Shown: positions 2,139-11,124 of the stretch, one piece after another
Layout of the letters: every line of letters begins with the position of its first letter
How positions within the stretch are numbered: position 1 is the first letter of the stretch
Assembly: GCA_946481195.1 (NCBI GenBank)
Contig: CAMLNG010000072.1
Coordinates: 1-11,210, forward strand
Origin: an uncultured Chromatiaceae bacterium
Lineage (GTDB): Bacteria; Pseudomonadota; Gammaproteobacteria; Enterobacterales; Alteromonadaceae
DNA length: 11,210 bases
Direction of reading: 5' to 3'
The notes under the pieces: generated by a model
Told to the model about the DNA's origin: nothing
What the model saw: the letters and a program-made list of their open reading frames with translations, nothing else
Databases searched by the model: none
Position numbers and translations under genes: made by a program

Positions 2139-2178
2139 GGTCCAACACCCGTCAATTTTCCAATTCAGGTTGTTTGAG

Positions 2179-3003
2179 ATGCTGCAAGCTGTATTAATTC
2201 TGATTGCTCTTTCTGCTGCGCTGATGGCGTGGTCATTACAGGCCGGCCAATATGGCGCATTCAGCGCTATTGTGGCCTATTACACCGAAGTGTCGCCGGC
2301 GCTACTGGCGAAGTTAGCCCAACCGCAGATTGGGTTGCTCTGGGTTGTGGTGTTACTGGCGCTGCTGGGCTTGCGCTGGCGTCTGCCGCAGCAGTTACTG
2401 GCGCTGAGTCTGGTCCTGTTCAGTATTTTACCGTTAATCAGTATGTTTGGTGCACTGCACTATATCGCCAGTCTGGGTGGTTTCCCGATGATTGGTTCCG
2501 GTCAGGGCGTCATAAAATTTGTCGCGCTGGTTGCGTTGGCCATCTCATTATGGCGCTGGCCTGTGTCTTCACCGGCCGAACGTTTTTGGCTGAATTATCT
2601 GCCGGTGGGGCTGGTGTTGCTGTGGATTGGCGGCATGAAATTTCTGCCGTTTGAAGCCAAAGGCATTGTGGATTTGGTAGCGTCGTCACCGCTGCTGAGC
2701 TGGTTGTATTGGGTTGCCGACGAGCAGCAGGCCTCCAATCTGATTGGTCTGTACGACTGGCTGGCTTTTGTGTTGCTGGGGTTGGGATTTCGCTGGCGCC
2801 AGTTGTTCTGGCCCGGCTTTTTGCTCAGTCTGGCGGTATTTGTCACCACCCAAAGTTTTTTGCTGAGTTTTGCCGGCGCCTGGAGCGCGCCTGGTGTCCT
2901 GAGCAGCAGCGGTGTGTTTATCATCAAAGACTTATGGTTTATCGCCAATTTGCTGTTGTTGCAACACGCCTGGCGGCAGCTGGCGCCGGGCCGGCGTGTT
3001 TAA
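2179..3003 (+). CDS. Integral membrane protein related to DUF417 (YkgB/RclC)
   Basis: Very hydrophobic protein of 274 residues with about eight predicted membrane segments. The C-terminal half matches the DUF417/RclC family: WIGGMKFLPFEAKGI (about 149-163), ASSPLLSWLY (168-177) and SSSGVFIIKDLWF (242-254), in the order seen in E. coli RclC, an inner-membrane protein of the reactive-chlorine-resistance locus. RclC is about 200 residues, so this protein is longer. The extra N-terminal half echoes the C-terminal half (IGLL..LLGLRWR, GSGQGVIKF), which suggests an internal duplication. I prefer ATG at 2179, with AGG nine bases upstream, over an in-frame TTG at 2170, which has only an adjacent AGG. 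Function unknown; an oxidative or envelope-stress role is inferred only from the family name. It converges on the sensor kinase gene 16 bases away. Confidence 0.8.
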   Translation: MLQAVLILIALSAALMAWSLQAGQYGAFSAIVAYYTEVSPALLAKLAQPQIGLLWVVVLLALLGLRWRLPQQLLALSLVLFSILPLISMFGALHYIASLGGFPMIGSGQGVIKFVALVALAISLWRWPVSSPAERFWLNYLPVGLVLLWIGGMKFLPFEAKGIVDLVASSPLLSWLYWVADEQQASNLIGLYDWLAFVLLGLGFRWRQLFWPGFLLSLAVFVTTQSFLLSFAGAWSAPGVLSSSGVFIIKDLWFIANLLLLQHAWRQLAPGRRV

Positions 3004-3019
3004 TGCTGACCGCCACCCT

Positions 3020-4351
3020 TTAAGCCGCCAGTTCGAGCCGGAAACAGGCTGAAGGTTGTGCGCGGTGCAGCCGCAGTTCACCGCCCATCGCCTGCATCAG
3101 CTGGCGTGACAGCGCCAGGCCAATGCCGCTGCCTTTGGCTTTAGTGGTAAAAAACGGCGTGAACAGACTGCTTTGCGCGCTGTCGCTGATGCCACCGCCC
3201 TGATCGGTGATGTCCAGCCAAAGCCGGCCTTCGGCCAGTTGCAGCTGCAAATCCAGTTGTAGCTGAAAGTCCAGTTGCAGTGGGCCTTGGCCTGGCGCTT
3301 CCTGTGGAGTCGGCACAGTCGGCTCAGCGGTGGGTGGCAGCAACATCGCCTGCACCGCGTTGGTGGCCAGATTCAGCACCACCTGCTCCAGCAGCGCCGG
3401 GTCGAACCAGGCCGCCTGCGACGGCGGCAGCTCTGCGGCCTGCCACTGCCAGCACAGCCGTGGATACTGGCCCTGCAGCAGTTTCAGGCTTTGCTCGACT
3501 GCCGGGCGCAGCGGCAGATACTGCAGCTGACAATGCACCGGCTGGCTCAGGCTGCGAAATTGCACCAGAAACTGCAGCAGATGCTGGCCGCGTTGCTGCA
3601 CTGTGGCAAGCGCCTCGCGCGCATCCTGTAAATCAACCGCATCCGGCTGAAGCAGCAACTGGCCAACCGATTCGGTCAGCGACGTCATCGGCGTAATCGA
3701 ATTGGCCATTTCATGATTGAGCACCCGCAGCAGCTGTTGATATGCCAGCACTTGCTGTTGTTGCAGCGGTGTGCGGATGCTTTGCAGCGTCAACAGATAA
3801 CTCCACTGACCGAGCAGCCGGGTGCGCACCAGACTGACCGCCAGCACATCGTCCGGCAGCTGCAGCGTCTGAGACGCCTGCGGTTTACTCAGCAGCAATA
3901 AACGCAACTGCGGCCACAATGCGGCGCCACTGTGTAGCAGCAGCCGTTCGGCGGCCGGGTTTTGCTCCAGCAATTCGCCTTGTTCGGATAAACGCAGCAC
4001 GGCGATGTCGAGCTGACTGAGCAGGGTTTGCAGATAACTGGCACGGGCTTCGGCCTGCTCGCGGGCGCTTAGCAACTGCTGACGGATTTGCGCAAGCAAA
4101 GCCGCTGTTTCCGGCTGTTGCTGGTCCTGCATCGACAAGTCGGCGTTGGCCAGCGCCTGCAACAAACGACGGGTCGCTTGCTGCGGGCTTTGGTAGTGGC
4201 GCCACAGCTGCCAGAGTGCAGCCAGCAATACCAGCAGACAAAGCAGCAGACGGGCACTGAATTGCTGCTCCTGCAGCCACAAGGTGCTGGCAAGTGCACT
4301 GCTGGCCACCAGCAGCGCCATCAGCAGCCAGAGCCGGCCGGCGCCATTCAT
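3020..4351 (-). CDS. Sensor histidine kinase, partner of the adjacent sigma-54 regulator
   Basis: Membrane histidine kinase of 443 residues. Two transmembrane helices (about 7-25 and 33-50) are separated by only about seven residues, so there is essentially no periplasmic sensor domain. A PAS-like segment follows (about 105-140, with LDIAVLRLSEQGELLEQNPA). The phosphoacceptor is probably His213 in LNHEMANSITPM. The ATPase domain has an N-box (LATNAVQAML, Asn331), a G1 box (DQGGGI, Asp383), an F-box (FTPFFTTK, 397-404) and a G2 box (GSGIGLAL, 407-414). The H-box style resembles NtrY-like kinases. Its ATG overlaps the regulator's TGA (ATGA, 4348-4351), so the two are co-transcribed, probably with coupled translation, and form a two-component pair. 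An unusual Leu/Gln-rich insert lies between the N-box and G1 (about 354-371), encoded by 18-bp tandem repeats. All catalytic motifs are intact. Confidence 0.93.
   Translation of the reverse strand: MNGAGRLWLLMALLVASSALASTLWLQEQQFSARLLLCLLVLLAALWQLWRHYQSPQQATRRLLQALANADLSMQDQQQPETAALLAQIRQQLLSAREQAEARASYLQTLLSQLDIAVLRLSEQGELLEQNPAAERLLLHSGAALWPQLRLLLLSKPQASQTLQLPDDVLAVSLVRTRLLGQWSYLLTLQSIRTPLQQQQVLAYQQLLRVLNHEMANSITPMTSLTESVGQLLLQPDAVDLQDAREALATVQQRGQHLLQFLVQFRSLSQPVHCQLQYLPLRPAVEQSLKLLQGQYPRLCWQWQAAELPPSQAAWFDPALLEQVVLNLATNAVQAMLLPPTAEPTVPTPQEAPGQGPLQLDFQLQLDLQLQLAEGRLWLDITDQGGGISDSAQSSLFTPFFTTKAKGSGIGLALSRQLMQAMGGELRLHRAQPSACFRLELAA
3234..3281 (-). repeat. 18-bp tandem repeat inside the kinase gene
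   Basis: On the plus strand, units beginning at 3234, 3252 and 3270 share the core CCAGTTG(C/T)AG with an 18-base period; the third copy is partial. The repeat is in frame (6 residues per unit) and encodes the alternating stretch LQLDFQLQLDLQLQL between the N-box and G1 box of the kinase. Confidence 0.7.
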
Positions 4352-5757
4352 AAGCCGTATTTCTCCAGCCGGCGATACAAGGCGCCACGGGTCAGCCCGA
4401 GCGCCTGGGCAGCCTGGCTGATATTGCCCTGATAAAAATGCAGGGCCTGGCGGATGGTTTTTTCTTCCACTTGTTCGAGCAAAAACGAATCGGTACCGGC
4501 CGCGGCGTCGGCCTGGTTGCCCGGAGCATGGGCCAGACCGGCTTGTACCGCCTGCGCAACATCGACAAGGTCGCTGGTCTGCGTCAGTTGCAGCTGCGCG
4601 AAATCAAGCTGGCCATTGTCCGACAGCACCACAGCGCGCTCCAGCATATGCGCCAGCTGACGCACATTGCCGGGCCAGTGGTACTGACTCAGCAGCTGCA
4701 GCTGCGCGGCGGATAACCGCAGGCCGGCACGCTGATACTGCCGGGCATAATGGTCGAGGTAATACTGCGCCAGCATCGGGATATCGTCGCGCCGTTCGCG
4801 CAGTGGCGGCAACACAATTTCCACCGTATTGATGCGGTACAACAAATCCTGCCGGAACTGACTCTGGCTGACCAAAGCGCCAAGCTGTTGATTACTGGCA
4901 CAAATAAGCCGGATATCAATGGGCTGCGGTTCAGTGCCACCGACCGGGATCACCTGACGGCTTTGCAGCACGGTGAGCAGCCGGGCCTGGCCGGCCAAAT
5001 CGAGGTTGTGCAGTTCATCGAGTAGCAAAGTGCCGCCTTTTGCTTGCCGGAAGCGGCCTGGTGCATCGGTCACCGCGCCGGTAAATGCGCCTTTTTTGTG
5101 GCCAAACAACTCGCTTTCCAGCAAAGAAGGAGTAATAGCGCCCATATCGACGCAGACCAGCGGTGCTTGGTGGCGCAAGGACGCCTGATGAATGGCTTCG
5201 GCGACCAGTTGTTTACCGGTACCACTTTCACCGAGCAGCAGAATATTGGCGTCGGTGCCGGCTGCTTTTTGGATGAGCTGGCGTACCTGCTGCATCGCCG
5301 GGCTGTTGCCGAGCAATGGCTGGCCGGCGGTGGCCGTGCTGACGGGCGTGGTTTGCGCCAGCTGACGGGCGATGATTTGCCGCAACTGGTCGTTTTGCCA
5401 GGGTTTGGCGACAAAATCACGGGCACCGAGCTGCATCGCCTGCACAGCCAGCTGCACGTCGGCGTAAGCAGTCATCAGCACCACTTTTAAATCCGGCTGC
5501 AATGCGAGTGCTTGTTTGAGGTAAAACAGACCTTCGGCACCGCTGGCAGCATCGCGGCTGAAATTCATGTCCAGCAGCAGCACATCGATCCGCTCACTTC
5601 GCAGCAGCGGCAACAGCTCAGCAGGTTCAGCCAATGTGCGAACCTGACAACCAAGTGGCTTTAAACAGAGTTTACTGGCCAGCAGCAGATCGGTGTTGTC
5701 GTCCAGCACCAGCACGGTCTGCCGCGGATCGGCAGCTGGCTCTCCAGAAACGGCCAT
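4348..5757 (-). CDS. Sigma-54-dependent response regulator, NtrC family
   Basis: Three-domain enhancer-binding protein. Numbering here counts from the in-frame TTG at 5760; subtract one for the chosen ATG at 5757. The receiver domain (about 14-130) has acidic residues Asp20 and Asp21, probable phosphorylation site Asp64 (LLLDMNF) and conserved Lys119. The AAA+ domain (about 148-380) has Walker A GESGTGK (177-183), the sigma-54 contact loop GAFTGA (224-229), Walker B GGTLLLDEL (242-250) and WPGNVRQL (362-369). A Fis-type helix-turn-helix ends the protein (about 435-467, NISQAAQALGLTRGALYRRL). An intact GAFTGA loop means it should open sigma-54 promoters. It is divergent from an exporter operon whose upstream region has a -24/-12 promoter and twin dyads, its likely target. 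ATG at 5757 is preferred because GGAG lies eight bases upstream, against five for the TTG. Confidence 0.95.
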   Translation of the reverse strand: MAVSGEPAADPRQTVLVLDDNTDLLLASKLCLKPLGCQVRTLAEPAELLPLLRSERIDVLLLDMNFSRDAASGAEGLFYLKQALALQPDLKVVLMTAYADVQLAVQAMQLGARDFVAKPWQNDQLRQIIARQLAQTTPVSTATAGQPLLGNSPAMQQVRQLIQKAAGTDANILLLGESGTGKQLVAEAIHQASLRHQAPLVCVDMGAITPSLLESELFGHKKGAFTGAVTDAPGRFRQAKGGTLLLDELHNLDLAGQARLLTVLQSRQVIPVGGTEPQPIDIRLICASNQQLGALVSQSQFRQDLLYRINTVEIVLPPLRERRDDIPMLAQYYLDHYARQYQRAGLRLSAAQLQLLSQYHWPGNVRQLAHMLERAVVLSDNGQLDFAQLQLTQTSDLVDVAQAVQAGLAHAPGNQADAAAGTDSFLLEQVEEKTIRQALHFYQGNISQAAQALGLTRGALYRRLEKYGL

Positions 5758-5769
5758 CAAAAGAACTCC
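5755..5769 (-). promoter_or_regulatory. Ribosome binding site and start choice for the regulator
   Basis: On the minus strand GGAG (complement of 5766-5769) sits eight bases before ATG (5757-5755) and five before the in-frame TTG (5760-5758). The spacing favours the ATG. Confidence 0.6.
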
Positions 5770-5810
5770 GGCATTTTACAAATTTGCAAAGAGGTCAGTA
5801 CCTTAACTGA

Positions 5811-5822
5811 TGCCGGCCGGCA
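5811..5822. repeat. 12-bp palindrome in the divergent region
   Basis: TGCCGGCCGGCA is a perfect palindrome about 55 bases upstream of the regulator start. Its role is unknown. It differs from the twin dyads near the exporter promoter. Confidence 0.4.
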
Positions 5823-5844
5823 CTGGCAAGCGGCACTGGTAAGC
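5819..5844. repeat. 13-bp tandem direct repeat
   Basis: GGCACTGGCAAGC (5819-5831) is followed immediately by GGCACTGGTAAGC (5832-5844), with one mismatch. It lies between the two divergent genes. It may be a recent local duplication or a binding site repeated on one face of the DNA. Confidence 0.6.
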
Positions 5845-5859
5845 GGTCCCGGCTGGACC
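5845..5859. repeat. Short dyad GGTCC-N5-GGACC
   Basis: GGTCC (5845-5849) and GGACC (5855-5859) form a perfect inverted repeat. The core GTCC...GGAC is shared with the twin dyads at 5903 and 5934, but the spacer between GTCC and GGAC is five bases instead of six, so it is at best a degenerate third regulator site. Confidence 0.35.
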
Positions 5860-5882
5860 GGGCTTGTGGCGGGTCTGACAGC

Positions 5883-5894
5883 TGCAACGTTGCA
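5883..5894. repeat. 12-bp palindrome next to the first activator dyad
   Basis: TGCAACGTTGCA is a perfect palindrome ending nine bases before the first TGTCCA dyad. It does not match the dyad sequence, so a second regulator is possible, or chance. Confidence 0.4.
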
Positions 5895-5902
5895 TGCGGC
5901 CA

Positions 5903-5920
5903 GTGTCCATCCGTGGACAC
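5903..5920. promoter_or_regulatory. Upstream activator site 1 (TGTCCA-N4-TGGACA)
   Basis: GTGTCCA-TCCG-TGGACAC is a perfect 7-bp-arm dyad. It is the same TGTCCA-N4-TGGACA element as site 2, with its centre at 5911.5, about 105 bases upstream of the -12 element. Likely bound by a dimer of the divergent NtrC-type regulator through its Fis-type helix-turn-helix; this is inferred from position and duplication. Confidence 0.75.
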
Positions 5921-5933
5921 CTGGTCGGGCTGT

Positions 5934-5953
5934 ACTGTCCACCTATGGACAGT
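5934..5953. promoter_or_regulatory. Upstream activator site 2 (TGTCCA-N4-TGGACA)
   Basis: ACTGTCCA-CCTA-TGGACAGT is a perfect 8-bp-arm dyad centred at 5943.5. That is 32 bp from site 1, close to three helical turns, so both sites face the same side of the DNA. It lies about 73 bases upstream of the -12 element, the usual distance range for sigma-54 enhancers. The bases between it and the promoter (5954-6002) are strikingly AT-rich, as expected for a flexible or IHF-bent stretch, though no good IHF consensus was found. Confidence 0.78.
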
Positions 5954-6002
5954 TATTTTTCGTCAGAAAATGTATCTCATTGAATTTATATGGAAAAATC
6001 TC

Positions 6003-6017
6003 TGGCACGGCCTTTGC
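6003..6017 (+). promoter_or_regulatory. Sigma-54 (-24/-12) promoter of the exporter operon
   Basis: TGGCACG (6003-6009), four bases, then TTGC (6014-6017). The invariant GG (6004-6005) and GC (6016-6017) are separated by exactly ten bases, as the sigma-54 consensus requires. Transcription should start near 6028-6030, leaving a leader of about 33 bases before the adaptor ATG. Together with the GAFTGA-type regulator gene and the twin dyads this is a strong promoter call. Confidence 0.88.
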
Positions 6018-6045
6018 GATAACAAAGCACTCAGTATCTGTTATC
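6018..6045. repeat. Inverted repeat across the exporter transcription start
   Basis: GATAACA (6018-6024) and TGTTATC (6039-6045) are perfect 7-bp arms with a 14-base spacer. The repeat starts directly after the -12 element and ends before the ribosome binding site, so it straddles the predicted transcription start. Only the right arm would be in the RNA, so if functional it acts as a DNA site, for example for a repressor. Confidence 0.4.
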
Positions 6046-6050
6046 CCGCA

Positions 6051-6064
6051 AGGAGTTGACCATG
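6051..6064 (+). promoter_or_regulatory. Ribosome binding site that selects the adaptor ATG
   Basis: AGGAG (6051-6055) is six bases before ATG at 6062. An in-frame TTG at 6056 directly touches the Shine-Dalgarno and cannot be the start. Confidence 0.8.
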
Positions 6065-7339
6065 GACCGCATCATTGCCAAAGCGCCGCTGTGGCGCCAA
6101 CCGAAATTTCGCCTGAGCGCCGTGGCGCTGGCCGGCCTGTTGCTGGCAGGCCACAGCCTGTGGCAATGGCGCGCCAGTGCCAGCCCGCAGGCCGATATGG
6201 CGGTCAGTTCGCTGCAAACCGCGCTGGTGCAGCAACAGGCTTTCAGCGAAACCCTGCAACTGCGTGCCACAGTGTTACCGCAACAAACGGTGTTGCTCGA
6301 TGCCATCGAAGGCGGCCGCGTTGAACAGCGGCTGGTTGAACCGGGCAGTTATGTCAAAGCCGGTCAGCCACTGGTACAGCTGACCAACACCAGCCTGCAG
6401 CTGGATTTTATCAGCCGCGAAGCGCAGGTCAGCGAACAGCTCAGTTTCCTGCGCAACACTGAACTGGCGATGGCGACCACCGAGCTGGATTTAAAGCAGC
6501 AGGTGCTGGACGCCAGCCATGCCATTCGCCAGTTGGAGCGTCAGATTGGTTTCAGCCAGCCGCTGGTGGAGCGAGGTGTGCTGGCCAAAGAACAGCTGCG
6601 CACTTTGGCAGAAGACCTGGCGTATCAGCGTGAACGGCTTGAATTGGCCAAGCAGCGCCAACAACAGCAGTTGGAAGTGCAGCGTACGCAGAAAAAGCAG
6701 CTGCAGGACAGTGTGGCCATGCTGAGTAAAAACCTCGAATTTGCCCGTCAGCAGCTGCAAAACCTGCTGGTGCGGGCGCCGGTCGACGGGTACTTAAGTG
6801 AATTTCAGGTCGAGCCGGGTGAATCCAAAGCACCGGGCAGCCGGCTGGGGCAAATCGATATTCCGGGTCGCTTTAAGCTGCAGGCGCAGGTCGATGAATT
6901 CTATTTAAACCGCATCAGCCAGGGCATGACCGCGACGCTGCAACAACACAGCCAGCCCACCGGCAGCGAAACGCTGACCATCAGCCGGATCGACAGCCGG
7001 GTCGTCAACAATCAGTTCATCGTCGAACTGTTGTTGCCCGAGCAATTTAACGGCAAACGCGGCCAGAGCCTGTCGCTCGATTTATTGCTCGACGCCAGCC
7101 AGAGCCAAAGCCTGGTTTTACCCCGCGGCGCTTATTTATCCGACGGCGGCGGCCAGTTTGTTTATGTGCTGGACGAGGGCGGCAAAGCCAGTCGCCGCGC
7201 TGTCCAGCTGGGCCGCCAAAGCGCCCAGTTCGTTGAGATCCGCACTGGTTTGCAGGCCGGCGAACGTGTCATTATCTCCGGCTACCGCGATTTTCGCCAG
7301 GCTGACCACCTTCAATTCAACACAGGGAATGCATCATGA
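6062..7339 (+). CDS. Periplasmic adaptor (HlyD/MacA-type) of an ABC exporter
   Basis: Membrane-fusion protein of 425 residues that should link the inner-membrane ABC transporter to an outer-membrane channel. Seen in order: a basic N-terminus and a single membrane anchor (about 17-34, no lipobox); the first half of the lipoyl/barrel-sandwich domain (VEQRLVEPGSYVKAGQPLVQ, about 87-106); a long, Gln-rich coiled-coil hairpin (about 113-235); the second lipoyl half (LLVRAPVDGYLSEFQVEPGE, about 235-254); a beta-barrel region (about 270-345); and a C-terminal membrane-proximal domain (about 350-418, LQAGERVIISG). The two lipoyl halves flanking a hairpin define the family. It is the first gene of the operon, directly downstream of the sigma-54 promoter. 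Its TGA overlaps the ATPase ATG by four bases. The substrate is not predictable. Confidence 0.92.
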   Translation: MDRIIAKAPLWRQPKFRLSAVALAGLLLAGHSLWQWRASASPQADMAVSSLQTALVQQQAFSETLQLRATVLPQQTVLLDAIEGGRVEQRLVEPGSYVKAGQPLVQLTNTSLQLDFISREAQVSEQLSFLRNTELAMATTELDLKQQVLDASHAIRQLERQIGFSQPLVERGVLAKEQLRTLAEDLAYQRERLELAKQRQQQQLEVQRTQKKQLQDSVAMLSKNLEFARQQLQNLLVRAPVDGYLSEFQVEPGESKAPGSRLGQIDIPGRFKLQAQVDEFYLNRISQGMTATLQQHSQPTGSETLTISRIDSRVVNNQFIVELLLPEQFNGKRGQSLSLDLLLDASQSQSLVLPRGAYLSDGGGQFVYVLDEGGKASRRAVQLGRQSAQFVEIRTGLQAGERVIISGYRDFRQADHLQFNTGNAS

Positions 7340-8025
7340 TCGAACTGAAACAACTCAGCCGGACTTTTCGCACCGGGCAGCTGGAAACCACTGCGCTGAA
7401 CCAGATTAATCTCAGCATAGGCAGCGGCGAATTTGTCGCCGTGATGGGGCCATCCGGCTGCGGCAAATCAACCTTGCTCAGCATCCTCGGCATGCTGGAC
7501 AGCCCCAGCAGCGGCCAGTATTTATTTAAAGGCCAGGATGTGGCACCACTGCGCGAACAGCAATTGGCCACTATCCGCAAACAACATTTAGGCTTTGTCT
7601 TTCAAAGCTTTAACCTGATAGACGAGTTAAGCGTTGCCGAAAATGTCGAACTGCCGCTGCAATATCTGGGGGTGCCGAAGGCCGAGCGCGAACAGCGTGT
7701 TGCCGCCATGCTGAAGCGGATGGCGATTGACCACCGGGCCGACCATAAACCGCTGCAGTTATCGGGCGGCCAGCAGCAGCGGGTCGCGGTGGCGCGGGCG
7801 CTCGTGATCAACCCGAGCTTGATCCTGGCGGACGAACCGACCGGCAACCTTGACTCGAAAAACTCTGAAGAAGTGATGCAGTTACTGTCCGAATTACACC
7901 GTCAGGGCACCACTATCGTGATGGTGACGCACTCGGAACATGAGGCGCAGTATGCCAGCCGCATCGTGCGGATGCTGGATGGTCAGGTGGTGTCTGAGCG
8001 CGTGCTGGAGGTGAAATATGGCTAA
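7336..8025 (+). CDS. ABC transporter ATPase, MacB/LolD type
   Basis: Cytoplasmic nucleotide-binding subunit of 229 residues, the usual length for the MacB/LolD/FtsE class. All motifs are intact: Walker [10 protein letters not shown] (38-46), Q-loop Gln90 (FVFQSFNLI), ABC signature LSGGQQQRV (142-150), Walker B SLILADEP with Asp166 and catalytic Glu167, D-loop NLDS (171-174) and H-loop His199 (VTHS). [20 protein letters not shown] is typical of the class whose partners are FtsX-like permeases. In this class ATP hydrolysis drives conformational strokes of the permease and adaptor (mechanotransmission) instead of moving substrate through the membrane. It is translationally coupled to the adaptor upstream (ATGA overlap) and overlaps the permease start by eight bases. 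Confidence 0.95.
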
Positions 8026-10698: not shown

Positions 10699-11124
10699 AT
10701 GAGACTTTTACGTCACCTGCATAAAGCGCCTGTGCGTGTGCTCCGGTTACAACGTCGCAAAAGTATGATGCGGATCCGCTTTGGCATGATCCGGCTGCAA
10801 TGTGCGTTGTCGCAGGAAAAAGCTGAAACCAAACAGATGCTGCGTATTTATCAGCAATATGTGACCGGTCAGGTCAGTAAAGCTGAGTTGCAGCAAGCCA
10901 ATGCCCAGCTGGCCGACGTGCTGCGGGCGACCGGTCTTGGTGTATTTGCCATTCTGCCATTCGCGCCTATCACTATTCCGCTCATCGTCAAACTTGGCCG
11001 TAAGCTTGGTATTGAAGTAATGCCAAGTGCATTTGCACCAAAAGACAAATATCTGCATCCGGGCAAGACCAGCAAAGCGCTGTCAGCACCCGCCGCGAAG
11101 CCGGTGAAAAAGACCGACAGTTAA
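10699..11124 (+). CDS. Small LETM1-like protein
   Basis: Protein of 141 residues: a strongly basic N-terminus (about 1-28), a charged amphipathic helix (about 38-75, SQEKAETKQMLRIYQQYVTG), one hydrophobic segment (about 78-98, GLGVFAILPFAPITIPLIVK), then KLGRKLGIEVMPSAF (98-112) and a Lys/Pro/Ala-rich flexible tail. The hydrophobic segment followed by a Leu/Met-Pro-Ser-x-Phe ending resembles the core of the LETM1 family, which in mitochondria is an inner-membrane protein implicated in K+/H+ or Ca2+/H+ exchange. Short bacterial relatives are mostly uncharacterised. The assignment rests on motif recognition alone; it could be an unrelated one-TM protein. The start is ATG with AGAGGA five bases upstream. 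It is probably transcribed separately from the exporter operon, after the hairpin. Confidence 0.65.
   Translation: MRLLRHLHKAPVRVLRLQRRKSMMRIRFGMIRLQCALSQEKAETKQMLRIYQQYVTGQVSKAELQQANAQLADVLRATGLGVFAILPFAPITIPLIVKLGRKLGIEVMPSAFAPKDKYLHPGKTSKALSAPAAKPVKKTDS

Follow-up and report, generated by a model that had tools for sequence, protein, structure and literature searches.

A predicted sigma-54 switch in front of an exporter operon with a duplicated MacB-type permease, and a possible link to class III lanthipeptides

The intergenic region described here very probably holds a sigma-54 circuit, in which upstream dyads, a -24/-12 promoter and a divergently encoded NtrC-type pair would control an exporter operon. 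A preliminary description of the window (the whole stretch of DNA analysed, 11,210 nucleotides) had proposed such a circuit, with a sigma-54 promoter, upstream sites, a divergent NtrC-type pair and a double-FtsX exporter, and the sequence comparison of 71 loci supports it. Taken as a whole, the window is likely to encode a self-contained, inducible module for lanthipeptide-type export or detoxification, with Bce-like logic and a sigma-54 output; that the cargo or signal belongs to the lanthipeptide-like (class III RiPP) or similar membrane-active peptides is a step that we hold to be somewhat more probable than its opposite.

Organization of the locus

The open reading frames and Pfam matches define two divergent units of five genes in all, with the kinase and NtrC-type regulator genes on the minus strand and the adaptor, ATPase and permease genes on the plus strand (Table 1). 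Neighbouring genes inside each unit overlap by 4-8 bases, with a 4-base overlap between the regulator and kinase genes, and the regulator reading frame has an alternative TTG start at 5760. A gene for a DUF417 membrane protein (2170-3003) is convergent with the kinase gene, and a 141-residue protein with no Pfam match is encoded downstream of the permease (10699-11124). No RNA family scored above its gathering score in the window, and no sigma-70-like site was found at 5700-6120.

Table 1. Coordinates of genes and predicted sites in the window, with the basis for each.
Feature	Position	Strand	Basis
Sensor histidine kinase, 443 aa	3020..4351	-	Pfam HATPase_c; hydropathy; H-box HEMANSITP; structure model
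NtrC-type response regulator, ATG start	4348..5757	-	Response_reg, Sigma54_activat, AAA_lid_14, HTH_8; GAFTGA loop
Upstream activator dyad 1 (predicted), TGTCCA-N4-TGGACA	5904..5919	+	Exact match; conservation; shuffles
Upstream activator dyad 2 (predicted), TGTCCA-N4-TGGACA	5936..5951	+	Exact match; centre-to-centre 32 bases from dyad 1
IHF-like site, YAAN4TTGW with one mismatch	5973..5983	unassigned	Position kept in many relatives
Sigma-54 -24/-12 promoter element (predicted), TGGCACGGCCTTTGCG	6003..6018	+	Pattern match; conservation; shuffles
Ribosome-binding-like AAGGAG ahead of adaptor ATG	6050..6055	+	Sequence
Periplasmic adaptor, HlyD/MacA type, 425 aa	6062..7339	+	HlyD_3, HlyD_D23; best NCBIfam model DarC, under cut-off
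MacB-type ATPase, 229 aa, overlapping both neighbours	7336..8025	+	ABC_tran; best NCBIfam model DarD, 292 bits against cut-off 375
Duplicated MacB/FtsX permease, 812 aa	8018..10456	+	MacB_PCD x2, FtsX x2; ADOP and DarB models under cut-off; structure model, PDB matches

The intergenic regulatory region

The predicted promoter element has one mismatch to TGGCACGN4TTGCW, and ten bases lie between its GG (6004-6005) and its GC (6016-6017), which agrees with the exact GG-N10-GC geometry given in the preliminary description. The window has a single copy of TGGCACGN4TTGC, where shuffles have a mean of 0.0425; when two mismatches are allowed 8 matches are found against 5.09 expected, and since so loose a pattern is not rare the proof lies in conservation rather than in the lone match. 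A chance promoter was rejected on the conservation across the 71 loci (see below). Most Rheinheimera-like loci have GC as the -12 dinucleotide, others GT, GA or GG, and no pattern of covariation between these bases and the contact loop of the regulator was evident by eye.

Dinucleotide shuffling of the window, repeated 400 times, never gave an exact copy of the dyad (mean 0.0, maximum 0). The two upstream dyads had been described as identical, which is true of their arms but not of their four-base centres (TCCG versus CCTA). In most relatives the second dyad is degenerate, with at least three mismatches in 32 of the 39 loci counted (L005 and the regulator-less loci being left out). The best second site in these 39 loci lies at a centre-to-centre spacing of 22.5 (23 loci), 33.5 (11), 32 (4) or 29.5 (1) bases, and 38 of them have a gap of 50-53 or 61-64 between the second site and the promoter; the spacings of 22.5, 32 and 33.5, which account for 38 of the 39 loci, together with the two gap classes thus suggest steps of about one helical turn. 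In L197 the activator dyads are separated from the adaptor gene by an expanded tandem repeat with GGACA half-sites, located within ~500 bases upstream of that gene.

The exact dyad was found at 18 sites in 13 of the whole genomes of 24 relatives, 13 of these sites being in this intergenic region and 5 lying elsewhere. A control pattern gave 7 sites in the same 24 genomes, and none of the 5 dyads elsewhere has a promoter-like element within 250 bases. A wider regulon was therefore rejected for these 24 genomes, the exact dyads elsewhere being no more numerous than the control pattern and having no promoter-like element beside them.

Alignments reveal a YAA-N4-TTG-like site between the dyads and the promoter, which we take to be the IHF consensus read on the other strand. 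The strict IHF-like 11-mer was counted in a set of 40 regulator-bearing and 5 regulator-less loci, rather than in the 71-locus set, and is present in 24 of the 40, mostly 30-31 nt before the -24 element, and in one of the 5 (L139); it occurs anywhere in 16.6% of shuffles. The window does not have the strict 11-mer, its site having AT for AA (one mismatch), and this site lies 30 nt before the -24 element. Genes for RpoN and IHF-alpha are present in all five relatives tested.

Conservation among relatives

A search for the permease in 395 genomes, all from the family of a Pseudoalteromonas genome, gave matches at E 1e-120 or better in 63. The 71 loci compared represent all 63 genomes (one via L001), second copies in four genomes, L002, L003, L005 and the window; tandem second permeases within one locus were not counted apart. 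A regulator match lies no more than 4 kb upstream of the adaptor in 64 of the 71 loci, leaving seven with no regulator, and all but one of the 64 have a kinase match too, the exception (L197) running off its contig.

The regulator-bearing loci have a dyad in the 300 bases before the adaptor in 57 of 64 cases with at most one mismatch, and in 60 of 64 with at most two. The strict promoter pattern TGGCAY-N5-YTG is present on the adaptor strand in 57 of the 64 and its relaxed form in 63, and the strict form is on the opposite strand in none of the 64; shuffles of 40 regulator-bearing loci yield a dyad with two mismatches in 0.9% and a strict promoter in 0.55%. The four exceptions for the dyad are diverse: L005 has another perfect dyad plus a -24/-12 element, the L136 dyad has three mismatches, in L186 there is no match within 900 bases, and the dyad of L197 is retained 505 bases upstream, behind the tandem repeat. 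The seven loci that lack the regulator have neither a dyad (3 to 5 mismatches) nor a strict promoter; a relaxed promoter match is present in one of them, L189. Many of the 71 loci are closely related, and these counts are thus not independent. The preliminary description had called for this intergenic region to be compared across relatives and had regarded the module as conserved-looking; where the regulator is retained, the dyad and the -24/-12 element nearly always are too, and in seven loci the dyad, the strict promoter and the regulator are all missing.

A genome scan of mostly Bacteroidota (L004 to L080, 77 loci) gave an adaptor match in 24 loci, 18 of which also have the regulator; the adaptor is within 1 kb of the locus end in five of the six adaptor loci with no regulator. 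The -24/-12 pattern was found in 4 of these 18 regulator-bearing loci (3 of 17 when L005, which is from Pseudoalteromonas, is set aside).

Kinase and regulator

The H-box H-E-x-x-N-x-x-x-P is present in all 40 kinases examined. Hydropathy predicts two N-terminal membrane segments in 37 of these, separated by 2 to 26 residues, and a single one in the kinases of L119, L120 and L138; ten of the 40 have a third, weaker hydropathic stretch further in. The model of the window kinase (mean pLDDT 80.5) has helices at 3-28 and 33-69 joined by a four-residue turn, and the protein is thus predicted to be a membrane hairpin with no periplasmic domain, a layout that we take to be that of intramembrane-sensing kinases such as BceS. 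Its middle region, which has no Pfam match, may be read from the model as PAS-like. By hydropathy and model, this is a kinase predicted to lack an extracellular sensor domain and encoded next to transporter genes, as in Bce modules.

The regulator has the NtrC-type domain set of receiver, AAA+ sigma-54 domain and Fis-type helix-turn-helix (REC, Sigma54_activat, HTH_8). The preliminary description noted an intact GAFTGA loop, which the window regulator does have, but the family as a whole mostly has GAFTDA (50 of 62 gamma rows including the window, with G250 and the paralogues left out). Regulators with the GAFTDA loop face well-conserved -24/-12 elements. According to its available text, a 2025 sigma-54 survey of many phyla (PMC12316311) retained only regulators with GAFTGA, and on that account it would miss most of this regulator family.

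Seven genomes searched for related regulators at E 1e-60 or better contain 7 to 14 each. A tree of 93 regulators places the window group with L005, G250 and 15 Bacteroidota rows (78 rows) apart from 15 paralogues, the separating branch having a support of 99; matches shorter than 380 residues were dropped (L127, and L197 at a contig end). The L127 regulator gene (G297) matches in two overlapping frames and may therefore be frameshifted, or the assembly may be wrong; its dyad and promoter remain. Ten of the 15 paralogous regulator loci fetched have a MacB-type ATPase match within the stretch, so that several parallel exporter circuits seem to be present. Paralogous NtrC-type regulators accompanied by kinase matches are found near other MacB-type ATPases of the same genomes in L164, L165, L166, L169, L170, L171, L172, L175, L176 and L180.

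The exporter

The three plus-strand genes have the composition of a MacB-superfamily tripartite exporter, with a MacB_PCD and FtsX permease, a separate ATPase and an adaptor, and no outer-membrane channel gene was recognised by Pfam among the nine window proteins. The permease model (mean pLDDT 84.9) best matches E. coli YbbAP (E 1.9e-21, TM 0.43), with MacB, LolCDE and BceABS (TM 0.34) as lower matches; its first ~20 residues are poorly modelled, and the start of the permease may thus lie further in. The nearest named permease relatives are in Rheinheimera, then in Alkalimonas and Arsukibacterium, and the 21 plasmid records that match the permease are all under 60% identity. Two or three permease genes stand in a row behind one adaptor in L144, L148, L153, L155 and L157, and one of the two G380 permease copies has one in-frame TAG.

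A possible link to lanthipeptide gene clusters

A class III lanthipeptide synthetase gene is present in four of the seven loci that lack the regulator (L003, L139, L145 and L146); it was identified through its RamC_N, Pkinase and LANC_like domains in L145 and by tblastn in the other three; those of L139 and L003 are cut by the locus end. All four loci also have an ABC half-exporter and a LuxR-type gene, and L145 has three precursor-like frames in a row. The remaining regulator-less loci are at or near a contig end (L151 and L189) or have a different gene order (L204). Since no LanKC synthetase was found in the window or in the 64 regulator-bearing loci, the cargo reading rests on relatives. 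The naive hypergeometric chance that all four synthetase loci fall among the seven is 3.6e-5, calculated on loci that are related and whose downstream flank is mostly short; the L003 synthetase is ~8 kb past the permease, beyond the downstream flank fetched for most loci. In this same locus, from Ferrimonas kyonanensis, an autoinducer synthase gene (Autoind_synth, L003:5188-5988) lies upstream of the regulator-less exporter copy.

A genome-wide search with the L145 synthetase is free of the short-flank fault that affects the locus-based count. At E 1e-80, this query has matches in 11 of the 395 genomes; 7 of these belong to the 63 exporter-bearing genomes, of which the other 56 have no synthetase at this threshold. 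Five of the 11 synthetase-bearing genomes (G303, G340, G189, G250 and G331) have an adaptor-ATPase-permease set beside the synthetase, as does Ferrimonas G003. The other six have no such exporter within the fetched stretch, and four of these (G021, G046, G247 and G322) have a regulator-bearing exporter elsewhere. Besides their lanthipeptide copy, G303 and G340 have a regulator-bearing copy (L174 and L173 respectively).

The most informative of these loci, that of G250 (L214, G250:C14:66001-85900), contains, at 4282-18540, a class III lanthipeptide gene cluster with all five window gene types. A dyad TGTTCG-N4-CGAACA at 4282 is followed by the -24/-12-like TGGCATATCGATTGC at 4374 and then, on one strand, by two precursor-like frames, the synthetase, an ABC half-exporter, a second such dyad (9355), the adaptor, ATPase, permease, NtrC-type regulator and kinase, and a 620-residue protein with no Pfam match. 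These dyads (TGT-N10-ACA) have the same 6-4-6 build as those of the window but a different sequence, and the permease and regulator are 31% and 48% identical to those of the window. The gene order thus places the five-gene set of the window, reordered, within a lanthipeptide gene cluster.

In a FastTree permease tree, from which matches under 700 residues were dropped, the L139 lanthipeptide copy is sister to the window and its two nearest relatives (support 99), L139 being flagged as a long branch. No class III synthetase match was found in these nearest relatives, G180 and G141; this is more easily reconciled with tolerance in non-producers than with the export of a peptide of their own making. 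The preliminary description had named neither cargo nor signal; the sequences of relatives suggest class III lanthipeptides as a lead to the cargo.

Discussion

We propose, by analogy to Bce modules, that the hairpin kinase would sense, inside the membrane, either an amphipathic peptide or the exporter in its loaded state. From what is established for sigma-54 activators, the kinase would phosphorylate the regulator, which would then oligomerise on both dyads and loop to the sigma-54 polymerase, with help from IHF, for ATP-driven opening of the promoter. The exporter would expel the peptide through an outer-membrane channel encoded elsewhere, with the relatives pointing to a peptide as cargo. 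Under this scheme, the form switched by sigma-54 would provide non-producers with immunity or detoxification, and the LuxR-linked or biosynthetic forms would export a self-made peptide. We advance more tentatively, as rather less probable than not, a generalization in which the module is a sigma-54-wired counterpart of Bce modules, with a sensorless kinase that reads the peptide-loaded duplicated MacB exporter in the membrane and drives an all-or-nothing promoter; the set, mostly with GAFTDA, would be common to Gammaproteobacteria and Bacteroidota and would have been recruited at least once (G250) as an autoinducing switch of a lanthipeptide cluster.

The intergenic region can also be read as dyad 2 forming the stem of an intrinsic terminator or attenuator, with the -24/-12 match arising by chance. 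The segment 5934-5953 does form a hairpin followed by a T-rich tail (one found in a terminator scan against 0.4 expected), but a terminator does not account for a dyad 1 that is kept in sequence and not merely in pairing, for a best second site at one-turn spacing steps, or for a dyad and strict promoter that are missing where the regulator is missing. The strict promoter is moreover on the exporter strand in 57 of 64 loci and on the other strand in none. The terminator reading of dyad 2 was rejected on the sequence conservation of dyad 1, the spacing steps and the co-loss with the regulator, and we regard this explanation as a whole as extremely improbable.

Two other explanations accept the sigma-54 circuit and differ as to what it serves. 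The kinase may itself sense general membrane or envelope stress, the pump being a MacAB-like exporter of broad range that serves efflux or envelope maintenance (for lipids, dyes or macrolides), with no special tie to lanthipeptides. This would suit a permease model like YbbAP and MacB, the lack of a class III synthetase at E 1e-80 in 56 of 63 exporter-bearing genomes, and the other MacB-type ATPases near paralogous regulators (10 of 15 loci); the same exporter type does, however, recur in lanthipeptide clusters, once together with kinase and regulator, and we consider this explanation unlikely. Alternatively, the exporter may secrete a self-made product encoded elsewhere, either a peptide or a quorum signal, with kinase and regulator acting as a timing switch and not in defence. 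The autoinducer synthase gene near the Ferrimonas exporter, the LuxR-type genes in the four regulator-less lanthipeptide loci and the tie between switch and biosynthetic cluster in G250 all speak for such a role, but the closest relatives G180 and G141 lack a class III synthetase match and no biosynthetic gene was recognised by Pfam among the nine window proteins scanned, and we think it improbable.

If the reading as a peptide-export and detoxification module is correct, it would provide a Gram-negative counterpart to the transporter-linked antibiotic-sensing modules of the Firmicutes, with a tightly silent sigma-54 output, and would give a family of uncharacterised duplicated MacB permeases a cargo class that can be tested. 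A natural comparison of producer export with acquired tolerance is offered by the exporter copies in lanthipeptide clusters, which lack the regulator, and the stand-alone copies, which have it, and the common GAFTDA loop facing conserved -24/-12 promoters offers a natural test of the strictness of the sigma-54 contact loop.

Comparison with known systems

DarBCD, a RiPP exporter by name, provides the best NCBIfam models for the window adaptor (DarC, 183 against a cut-off of 450) and ATPase (DarD, 292 against 375); for the permease ADOP is nearest, also with a score under its cut-off, and DarB is second (121 against 700). As all three Dar scores are below the curated cut-offs, membership in the darobactin exporter family was rejected. 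MacAB-TolC likewise consists of an adaptor, an ATPase and a MacB-like permease, but in the window the ATPase is a protein apart from the permease, which is duplicated. The MacAB systems of E. coli and Salmonella are under PhoPQ, according to the portion available of PMC5985334.

The 2025 survey reports, in its available text, that FtsX-type antimicrobial-peptide permeases (COG0577) are enriched behind predicted sigma-54 promoters in gamma-Proteobacteria and Bacteroidia (PMC12316311). Sigma-54 control of FtsX-type permeases has thus been reported as a statistical claim, which weakens the suggestion in the preliminary description that MacAB-like exporters are more often under sigma-70 promoters. 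That survey is statistical, and its available text gives no operator, kinase type or cargo for the window module. A Pseudoalteromonas genome has been described, in the available part of the paper (PMC11015633), as having an NRPS region that includes a kinase, a sigma-54 regulator, an ABC ATPase and an adaptor. Among the open-licence literature matches listed, subscription papers being outside the scope, no mention was found of the operator, the kinase type, the IHF-like site, the lanthipeptide link or the shared module.

By operator, the nearest known system is QseE/QseF (GlrK/GlrR) at glmY, which similarly combines a kinase and an NtrC-type regulator with multiple upstream sites, help from IHF and a sigma-54 promoter. 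The QseF sites are given as TGTN12ACA in the available text of PMC6075780, and the window site, TGTN10ACA, is two bases shorter. The target at glmY is a small RNA, whereas that in the window is an exporter; unlike QseE, the window kinase is predicted to lack a periplasmic domain, and no lipoprotein partner is seen beside it.

In Bce-type modules (BceRS-BceAB) a kinase with no sensor domain of its own likewise stands beside the operon of a MacB-superfamily permease, and the window permease model matches the BceABS structures weakly (TM 0.34). Bce modules use an OmpR-type regulator. The window differs in its NtrC-type sigma-54 regulator, its periplasmic adaptor and its duplicated MacB permease, having neither an OmpR-type regulator nor a permease of the Bce type, which is described in the available text of PMC5985334 as having ten helices and one large domain. 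The same text, a review, states that BceS cannot sense antibiotics directly and needs BceB and active BceA (PMC5985334). By analogy, the window module would at most work like a Bce module.
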